Shown: positions 40,878 to 43,899 of the stretch, one piece after another
How positions within the stretch are numbered: the stretch's first letter is position 1
Layout: every line of letters starts with the position of its first letter
Assembly: GCA_030373145.1 (NCBI GenBank)
Contig: JAUCZK010000014.1
Coordinates: 1 to 64,000 of the forward strand
Direction: 5' to 3'
DNA length: 64,000 nt
Origin: Cyanobium sp. CZS48M
Lineage (GTDB): Bacteria > Cyanobacteriota > Cyanobacteriia > PCC-6307 > Cyanobiaceae
Position numbers and translations under genes: made by a program
Notes under the pieces: model-generated
What the model was told of the DNA's origin: nothing
Database searches by the model: none
What the model saw: the letters and a program-made list of their open reading frames with translations, nothing else

Positions 40878-40893
40878 TCGGGGCTGATGACCT

Positions 40894-40920
40894 GAGGGGA
40901 CGGAGTTTCTCTCTCCCCTC
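40894..40920 (+). terminator. Stem-loop between cbbL and cbbS
   Basis: Arms GAGGGGA and TCCCCTC pair perfectly over 7 bp with a 13-base loop. There is no T run after it, so it is more likely an RNA stabiliser or processing site at the cbbL 3' end than a terminator. Confidence 0.5.
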
Positions 40921-40977
40921 TGTCACAGCCATCCATCCGGTTTGCCTGCATTCACCTGATTCCCCACAAGGATCCCC

Positions 40978-41319
40978 ATGCCCTTCAAGAGCACCGTGGG
41001 TGACTATCAAACAGTCGCCACCCTGGAGACCTTCGGCTTTCTCCCGCCGATGTCTCAGGACGAGATCTACGACCAGATTGCTTACATCATTGCCCAGGGT
41101 TGGAGCCCGCTGGTGGAGCACGTCCACCCCAGCCGTTCGATGGCGACCTACTGGTCGTACTGGAAACTGCCTTTCTTCGGAGAGAAGGATCTGGGCGTGA
41201 TCGTCAGTGAGCTCGAGGCCTGCCACCGCGCCTACCCCGACCACCACGTGCGTCTGGTGGGCTACGACGCCTACACCCAGAGCCAGGGCTCCTGCTTCGT
41301 GGTCTTCGAAGCACGCTGA
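40978..41319 (+). CDS. cbbS: RuBisCO small subunit
   Basis: 113 residues. ETFGFLPPMSQDEIYDQIAY, SMATYWSYWKLPFFGEKDLG and HHVRLVGYDAYTQSQGSCFV mark a form IA small subunit. It caps the L8 core and contributes to the CsoS2 N-repeat binding site at the L-S interface (known from Halothiobacillus). ATG 40978 has AAGG upstream. Confidence 0.98.
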   Translation: MPFKSTVGDYQTVATLETFGFLPPMSQDEIYDQIAYIIAQGWSPLVEHVHPSRSMATYWSYWKLPFFGEKDLGVIVSELEACHRAYPDHHVRLVGYDAYTQSQGSCFVVFEAR

Positions 41320-41330
41320 TCCCAGCGGTT

Positions 41331-41359
41331 GGCAGGTTTCGGCCACACCGGAACCTGCC
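41331..41359 (+). terminator. Long stem-loop (attenuator candidate) between cbbS and csoS2
   Basis: GGCAGGTTTCGG pairs with CCGGAACCTGCC as a 12-bp stem with one G-U pair and a CCACA loop, beginning 12 bases after the cbbS stop. A pyrimidine-rich TCCCTTCGTCTTCATTCTT follows. It is the strongest hairpin in the operon. Partial termination here would give much more cbbLS than csoS2 mRNA. Confidence 0.7.
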
Positions 41360-41484
41360 TCCCTTCGTCTTCATTCTTCCAGCGGCTCAAGACAACGGTG
41401 TGAGCGGCAGGCCAGGCCCCTGGCCCTCCATTCACCAGTGCTCTGCGGCTGTCTTTGTTCAGGTTGTTTCTTCACAGGGCGGAT

Positions 41485-43899
41485 ATGGCATCTCAATCCA
41501 GTCGCGAAGCGGCCCTTGCGCGCCGAAAGGCGCTCTCCACAGCTGGAAAAACGGCGGAGAAGCGCTATTCCAACGGTGCCAACCGCACCCGCAGCGCCGC
41601 TGAGGCCCGCCCCACCCGCTCGATCACCCCGGTGGCCGCCGCCGTCAGCCGTGAGGCTGAGGCGCCCACCAAGCCGCTGTTCAGTGGCAGTAGCAGTGGA
41701 CACGCACCCTCAGGCCCCTCCCGCCAGCTCAACCGTGCCGCCATCAGCAACCCCAGCCGGGATCTGGTGATGGCCCGGCGGGAAGCCCTGAGCAAGCGGG
41801 GCAAGCGGGCCGACACCAGCAGCGACCGCTGCCGTGACGGCAGCTCCCTGCGCGCTGTCGCTACGCCCACTTCTGCGCCTGTGAGCTCCCCGCCGCCAGC
41901 AGCCAGCCGCCCTTCCCTGTCCCTGAGCGCCCCCCCGTCCACTTCCCTCAGCGATCGCCGCAGCAACGGCAACCGGCCCACAGCCAAGCGCTCCGCCCAG
42001 TTCAACCCCAGCCGCGCCATCGTCATGGCCCGCCGCGAAGCCCTCTCCAAACGCGGCAAGTCAGCCTCCACCAACAGCTCCAGCGGCACCGCCGCCGTGG
42101 TGCGTCAGTCGAACCCCGACATCAGCAGCCGGGAACTGGCCCACCGCATCCGTGATCTCAAGAGCAAGAACGGCGCCGGCGCCATCAGCCGCGGCACCGG
42201 TGTGACCCGGCCGACGGGTCCGAGGCGCGGCCCCAACAAGGTGGCCGGCGCCCAGGACGCCACCTGGAAAGTGGGCGCCAGTGAAACGGTGCGCGGTCAG
42301 GTGGTGACCGGCACCCAGGCCAACCGCTCCGAGAAGACGACCGGCAACGAGGCCAGCACCTGCCGCCCGATCACCGGCACCGAATACATGGGAGCAGACA
42401 TTTTCCGCACGTTCTGCCAGAGCGAGCCTGAAGCGCTCCAGCCCGCCAAGGTGCGCGTCACGGCCACCAGCCACGGCAACCGCGTCACCGGCAACGAAGT
42501 AGGCCGTTCGGAGAAGGTCACCGGCGATGAACCCGGCACCTGCAAGTCCATCACCGGCACCGAGTACATCTCGGCGAACCAGGCGGCGGCCTACTGCGGC
42601 ACCACCTCCGTCAGCCCCCGCAAGGTGGGCCACAGCCAGACCCTGGCCGGCAGGCCGGTGTCGGGTGTGATGGTGGGCCGCTCCGAGCGGGTCACCGGTG
42701 ATGAGCATGGCGCCGGCATCCAGCCCACCGGCACCCAATACCTGGGCTCCGATTCGATCAGCACGCCCGGTCAGGCCCCCCCCAAGGTGGCCAGCGTCCA
42801 GACCCTGAGGGGCACCGGCATCACCGGCACCCTGGTGGGCCGCAGCGACAAGGTCACAGGCGATGAGCCCGGCTCCTGCCGTCGCGTCACCGGCGATGAG
42901 TACATCGGCAGCCAGCAGTACCAGAACTTCTGCGGCGGCCGCCCGGAGCCCGAAGCAGCCAAGGTGGGCTTCAGCCTCACCAACAAGCAGCTGATCGTCT
43001 CGGGCACTAACACCGGTCGCTCCTCCAAAGTCACCGGCGATGAGCCCGGCACCTGCAAAGCCGTCACGGGCACGCCCTACGCCGGCCTGGAGCAGGCCAG
43101 CGCCTGGTGCGATTCCTCAGCTGTGCGCGGCATCCGCCAGCGCACTCCAGCCCGCGCCGGTACCCCCGGGCCGCGCATGAGCGGTCTGCAACCGGGCATC
43201 GGTGGGGTGATGACCGGCGCCTCGAAGGGGGCCTGCGAACCCGTTTCCGGCACCCCCTACGTGGGCGTCGATCAGTACAACGAAGCCTGCAGTGCCGCCC
43301 AGGGCCACGAAGCCGATTTCCCCCAGCCGCTGGAAACCCAGCCCTGGCAGGAGTTCAGCGTGCAGTCACCGGCACGGGCCGCCCATCAGCAGCGGGAACG
43401 CAGCTCAGCTGTCACCGGCACCCGCTACGAAACCAGCGCCAGGATCACCGGCCCTTTTGATCTGGCCGGTGGCAAGGTCACCGGCACCGAGAACGCCCGC
43501 TTCGACCGGCGCGGCCCCGAGCCCCAACCGCTGCCTGCCGTGCGGCGCCAGACCTCCGTGCTGCCCCCTCGCCCCCAGGCGGCACCCCTCCCTGTGCCCA
43601 GTGCCCCGGTCAACGTCGATGAAGAGGCCCGCCCCACCAGCCGGGTCACCGGCGAAGGCATTTCCGCTGGCCTGAACATCACCGGCGACGACTGGGACCG
43701 GGGCAAGCGCGTCACCGGCACTGAGGGGGCCTCGGCCCGCCGCCGCAATCCCACCCGCACCGGGCCGATGACGGCAATGGCCACCATCCCGCCTAAGCGC
43801 AATGAGGAGGTGATGCAACCAATCAGCCGTGTCACCGGCTCGAGCGGCAACACCGACAGGGGCTCGTTGATCACCGTCTCCGGCGGTGCCCGAGGCTGA
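41485..43899 (+). CDS. csoS2: Carboxysome scaffold protein CsoS2
   Basis: 804-residue intrinsically disordered scaffold, start at ATG 41485 (MASQSSREAALARRKALSTA). N-terminal region: three good RuBisCO-binding repeats (LARRKALSTAGKTA, VMARREALSKRGKRA, VMARREALSKRGKSA) and a weaker fourth. Middle region: about six M-repeats with the pattern GRSEKVTGDEPGTCKSITGT. Most have a paired Cys; the third (VTGDEHGAGIQPTGT) lacks them. C-terminal shell-anchoring region ends ITVSGGARG. It condenses RuBisCO and connects it to the shell. The ORF track start at 41455 adds residues that belong to the leader. No programmed frameshift was verified. Confidence 0.97.
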   Translation: MASQSSREAALARRKALSTAGKTAEKRYSNGANRTRSAAEARPTRSITPVAAAVSREAEAPTKPLFSGSSSGHAPSGPSRQLNRAAISNPSRDLVMARREALSKRGKRADTSSDRCRDGSSLRAVATPTSAPVSSPPPAASRPSLSLSAPPSTSLSDRRSNGNRPTAKRSAQFNPSRAIVMARREALSKRGKSASTNSSSGTAAVVRQSNPDISSRELAHRIRDLKSKNGAGAISRGTGVTRPTGPRRGPNKVAGAQDATWKVGASETVRGQVVTGTQANRSEKTTGNEASTCRPITGTEYMGADIFRTFCQSEPEALQPAKVRVTATSHGNRVTGNEVGRSEKVTGDEPGTCKSITGTEYISANQAAAYCGTTSVSPRKVGHSQTLAGRPVSGVMVGRSERVTGDEHGAGIQPTGTQYLGSDSISTPGQAPPKVASVQTLRGTGITGTLVGRSDKVTGDEPGSCRRVTGDEYIGSQQYQNFCGGRPEPEAAKVGFSLTNKQLIVSGTNTGRSSKVTGDEPGTCKAVTGTPYAGLEQASAWCDSSAVRGIRQRTPARAGTPGPRMSGLQPGIGGVMTGASKGACEPVSGTPYVGVDQYNEACSAAQGHEADFPQPLETQPWQEFSVQSPARAAHQQRERSSAVTGTRYETSARITGPFDLAGGKVTGTENARFDRRGPEPQPLPAVRRQTSVLPPRPQAAPLPVPSAPVNVDEEARPTSRVTGEGISAGLNITGDDWDRGKRVTGTEGASARRRNPTRTGPMTAMATIPPKRNEEVMQPISRVTGSSGNTDRGSLITVSGGARG

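Follow-up and report, generated by a model that had tools for sequence, protein, structure and literature searches.

A conserved hairpin between cbbS and csoS2 that probably bounds the RuBisCO segment of the cso transcript in Cyanobium and its relatives

We analysed a window of 64,000 nucleotides from Cyanobium sp. CZS48M (contig JAUCZK010000014.1, positions 1 to 64,000); the window features described below lie on its forward (+) strand. Pfam placed the large and small subunits of RuBisCO upstream of the hairpin studied here, and CsoS2_M followed by CsoSCA and two EutN/CcmL vertex proteins downstream of it. The flanking genes are cbbS for the RuBisCO small subunit (40978–41319; RuBisCO_small, E 5e-35) and csoS2 for the carboxysome scaffold (41485–43899; CsoS2_M, E 4e-200). 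The hairpin itself (41331–41359, GGCAGGTTTCGG-CCACA-CCGGAACCTGCC) is located 11 nt 3' of the cbbS stop (41319) and 125 nt 5' of the csoS2 ATG (41485). According to sequence and fold the 5' arm covers 41331–41342, the loop CCACA 41343–41347 and the 3' arm, which shows compensatory changes in genus relatives, 41348–41359. The stem consists of 12 continuous perfect pairs with 8 G-C pairs and 1 G-U pair. The segment 41325–41380 folds with −25.6 kcal/mol (z −5.4), and 0 of 200 dinucleotide shuffles equalled this energy. The stem is followed by a tail (41360–41380, TCCCTTCGTCTTCATTCTTCC) with pyrimidines at 19 of 21 positions, although as a U-tract it is weak with 3 T in the first 8. An earlier note on this DNA had described both the 12-bp hairpin and the pyrimidine tract behind it, and both were borne out.

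Being a stable G-C-rich stem-loop close to a gene end, the hairpin has the form expected of a terminator. We compared it with the other gene ends using a terminator score of the d'Aubenton-Carafa type, applied to perfect stems only. Of the 61 ends of called genes in the window it ranked first for the score of uninterrupted stems and also had the best terminator score, yet the latter was just positive (+1.1). The simple terminator scan demands 5 T in 8 and hence did not list it. The element occurs at one site only in the 2.77-Mb genome, which rules out an origin as a dispersed repeat. At E 5 no Rfam family matched and a known RNA family was rejected on this basis.

The csoS2 leader (41360–41484) folded at chance level (z 0.00). 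The roughly 24 nt directly before csoS2 (41461–41484, AGGTTGTTTCTTCACAGGGCGGAT) hardly vary within the genus, whereas the rest of the leader does, and this genus comparison marks them as the likely ribosome-binding region of csoS2. The motif GGGCGGA before the csoS2 ATG recurs in more distant relatives. A promoter scan of the sigma-70 type gave no match in the leader or anywhere else in 36–52 kb. A local promoter before csoS2 was dropped as a candidate for this reason, which is weak evidence as the scan covered the sigma-70 type only. The leader also bears on a regulated attenuator that would switch with CO2 or light via an alternative RNA fold, a protein or an sRNA. In Prochlorococcus MED4 the sRNA Yfr10 targets only csoS1 and csoS2 among the genes of the operon, so parts of this message can be controlled separately (PMC6778093). 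However, the flat leader offers no competing fold downstream of the hairpin, the Rfam search was negative and no leader peptide was seen, and we consider regulation of this kind very improbable.

The gap between cbbL and cbbS contains a companion hairpin (40882–40930), which is imperfect, has no U-tract and, judged by its fold and by the relatives, is conserved. Its energy is −30.6 kcal/mol compared to −24.2 kcal/mol for the cbbS–csoS2 hairpin in the same calculation. The latter had been called the strongest hairpin of the cluster, which is correct for uninterrupted stems but not by energy. The cbbL–cbbS gap shows a z below −2 in 75% of the relatives, and the cbbL hairpins across relatives are bulged and mostly without a U-run. 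CbbL and CbbS are required equally, with a subunit ratio of 1:1. As termination between their genes would upset this ratio, the cbbL hairpin is difficult to interpret as a terminator. A stronger conserved hairpin at this position suggests 3'-end protection alongside termination, and we regard a contribution of protection as at least as likely as one of termination.

To study the conservation we sampled loci from the genus and the family, plus named genome contigs; part of the loci were chosen by the likeness of their cbbS and the loci are not independent. Among the 107 distinct cbbS–csoS2 gaps from the sampled cso operons of α-cyanobacteria, 103 carry a perfect stem with 8 bp or more, and for 88 of those 103 gaps the stem starts at most 40 nt from the cbbS stop. 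Strong stems were found in 90% of the gaps compared to 2.6% of the shuffled ones. Two of the four exceptions (L005 and L006) carry the genus hairpin in interrupted form. For the first 60 nt past the stop we calculated a median z of −3.9 for cbbS and −3.2 for cbbL, while the gaps after csoS1 (−0.8) and csoS2 (+0.3) showed no folding signal. The conserved cbbS hairpin is located between a gene needed in excess (RuBisCO) and a gene needed less. Several low-GC loci of the family (L103, L111, L096 and others) show a second short inverted repeat just past the first hairpin, e.g. CTTCTCCTTTGAGAGGAG. Two of the records, L020 and L071, are titled Betaproteobacteria bacterium and Bifidobacterium breve; their RuBisCO small subunit is 96–97% identical to that of this cyanobacterium and they are probably mislabelled or contaminated assemblies. 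A search of open-access papers gave no description of the α-cyanobacterial conservation of the hairpin or of its companion after cbbL.

The pairing is kept while the sequence changes. Within the genus, a small set, both-sided changes occurred in 3 of 13 pairs; in L005, for example, U-A became G-C and C-G became A-U. For 36 Cyanobium/Synechococcus sequences we observed both-sided changes in 7 of 11 pairs (37 cells), and the covariation score of this set was reached by 0 of 500 shuffles; the set was picked by hairpin sequence and is hence biased to paired sequences, and slid versions give the fairer control. The arms of different clades bear no resemblance to each other (ggtcccggc, atagcctcga, ctttctccaaaa). 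The compensatory changes and the differing arms together indicate that the RNA fold is what selection keeps, and on these alignments selection appears to maintain the structure while the sequence turns over. The earlier note had looked to relatives for the presence of the hairpin and for covariation, and both were found there. An inverted repeat could also be a binding site for a protein in the DNA, and the repeat is indeed palindromic and found on both strands. However, a complete change of the arms between clades with the pairing kept, including one-sided G-U changes, fits RNA pairing, and the genome holds a single copy; a DNA site is extremely improbable.

Terminator-like tails are more frequent behind cbbS than behind cbbL. 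T-runs of at least 4 follow the core stem in 34% of the cbbS tails and 15% of the cbbL tails, with 8% expected from local shuffles. The paired difference in T-run length has p = 0.003 by a statistic that ignores relatedness, and it depends on counting tails from the core stem: with extended hairpins the tails get absorbed and the difference between cbbL and cbbS vanishes. The terminator score was above 0 in 43% of the cbbS gaps, 9% of the cbbL gaps and 0–9% of the gene-end classes in two related genomes; the paired test of this score favours cbbS partly since only perfect stems are scored and the cbbL hairpins are bulged. In L075, L081 and L092 the stem has 6–8 T directly behind it (T7–T8 tails in some lineages), and by their sequence these hairpins are textbook intrinsic terminators, with scores for L075 and L092 far above those of gene ends in general. 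In the genus of the window the U-run is mostly absent (2–3 T of 8) and most genus relatives score below 0. Efficient termination at the window hairpin is doubtful because this terminator tail is missing. The proposal that the hairpin is an attenuator thus stands in part: terminator-like features are enriched at the cbbS boundary over the cbbL boundary and over general gene ends, but the structureless leader, in which neither an alternative fold nor a leader peptide was seen, and the genus tail without U-run do not suit a regulated attenuator.

To our knowledge intrinsic termination is the only termination route in cyanobacteria. Cyanobacteria appear to lack Rho (PMC7843447). The textbook terminators in the three loci above and a leader of 125 nt in the window would also agree with a full terminator that divides two transcription units, with a csoS2 promoter in the leader or inside cbbS. 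We consider this improbable, as the promoter scan of 36–52 kb gave no match (for the sigma-70 type) and as 31 gaps (∼30%) leave at most 40 nt between hairpin and csoS2, which makes a downstream promoter unlikely there. In those gaps csoS2 is probably served by read-through of the hairpin or by a promoter within cbbS, and reliance on read-through implies that the hairpin should be leaky.

The hairpin could instead be a pure stabiliser of the 3' end without any termination: the message would be cleaved in the cbbS–csoS2 gap, with the hairpin shielding the cbbLS piece from 3'-to-5' decay. The genus tail without U-run and the similar conserved hairpin without U-tract 3' of cbbL agree with this, and differential decay protected by structure is widespread in E. 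coli operons (PMC5927463). On the other hand T-runs are enriched behind the cbbS hairpin across relatives, up to T7–T8 in some, and protection alone needs none. Synechococcus PCC 7002 transcripts that carry a hairpin with a U-tail outlive those whose hairpin lacks one and those that have no hairpin (PMC7406221), which speaks against the window's version being a strong stabiliser and suits its T-tailed relatives. Taken on its own, we consider stabilisation rather unlikely.

The kind of mechanism, a leaky stop or end protection, is already known. The Rhodobacter puf operon has an intercistronic stabilising hairpin and differential mRNA decay. For the cso operon of Halothiobacillus neapolitanus, Cai et al. 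reportedly proposed secondary-structure elements in 2008. That proposal concerns the same type of operon and the same idea, namely that RNA structure sets unequal levels of the carboxysome messages, but H. neapolitanus is a proteobacterium, whereas position and covariation were worked out here across α-cyanobacteria. Intrinsic (Rho-independent) terminators, including the U-poor 'I-shaped' ones, resemble the cbbS hairpin in their strong G-C-rich stem, short loop and site just past the stop codon; the U-run is shared by the cbbS hairpins of several lineages but not by the genus of the window, and the cbbS hairpin differs in lying inside an operon between co-expressed genes. Intercistronic stabilising hairpins of E. 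coli operons (PMC5927463) likewise sit 3' of a segment needed in excess; the cbbS hairpin differs from them in that the U-runs of some lineages suggest termination too.

The comparison with proteobacteria comprised two plasmid-borne cso operons, too few to draw a conclusion. In the Thiodictyon operon (L120:4229-4454) a longer foldable region between cbbS and csoS2 (whole-gap z −6.0) includes a perfect stem of 21 bp, located further on than the 60-nt scan past the cbbS stop reaches and hence missed by it. The gap of Nitrobacter hamburgensis folded at chance level (z −0.2). An absence of the hairpin in proteobacteria was dropped as a claim given the Thiodictyon stem, and a search of viral contigs yielded no further proteobacterial cso operons. 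In G004 (L122–L141, 400 kb) identical 12-bp hairpins (TCTGATCGCTCAGCGGTGAGCGATCAGG and GATCGCTGAGTTGCCAATTCAGCGATC) with identical tails follow several genes; these are probably copies of mobile elements.

From the structure, position, conservation and covariation described above we infer partial termination, end protection and an effect on the message ratio: the cbbS hairpin probably acts as a leaky terminator and 3'-end protector, delimiting the RuBisCO segment of the cso transcript. It would form as the RNA polymerase leaves cbbS, and a fraction of the polymerases would stop there, many in the lineages with a U-run and few in the genus of the window. The stem would block 3'-to-5' exonucleases on terminated and on nuclease-trimmed transcripts, while the remaining polymerases would carry on into csoS2, csoSCA and the genes for the vertex proteins. 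The outcome would be more cbbLS message than csoS2 message from one promoter. RuBisCO does outnumber CsoS2 in α-carboxysomes, with a RuBisCO:CsoSCA:CsoS2A:CsoS2B ratio of 13:1:2:2.5 in H. neapolitanus (PMC12918739). Three points count against this leaky boundary: the window's score is borderline (+1.1) and most genus relatives are below 0, half-lives in PCC 7002 are shorter with U-less hairpins than with U-tailed hairpins (PMC7406221), and translation alone could give the RuBisCO excess. In the open-access literature we found no report of a measured cbbS:csoS2 ratio in an α-cyanobacterium.

More tentatively, and with slightly less than even confidence, we propose that α-cyanobacteria share a cso module with two hairpins, one after cbbL and one after cbbS, whose structure is kept and which would set the stoichiometry of the carboxysome at the RNA level, the second hairpin now being a true leaky terminator in some lineages. 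The transfer of carboxysomes to other hosts raises the practical question of how one operon yields many RuBisCO but few scaffold and vertex proteins. Should the hairpin set this ratio, it would be a small tunable part that should be kept or replaced deliberately when such operons are rebuilt. The same element is found across picocyanobacteria, some of them with existing RNA-seq data, which offers a ready test.
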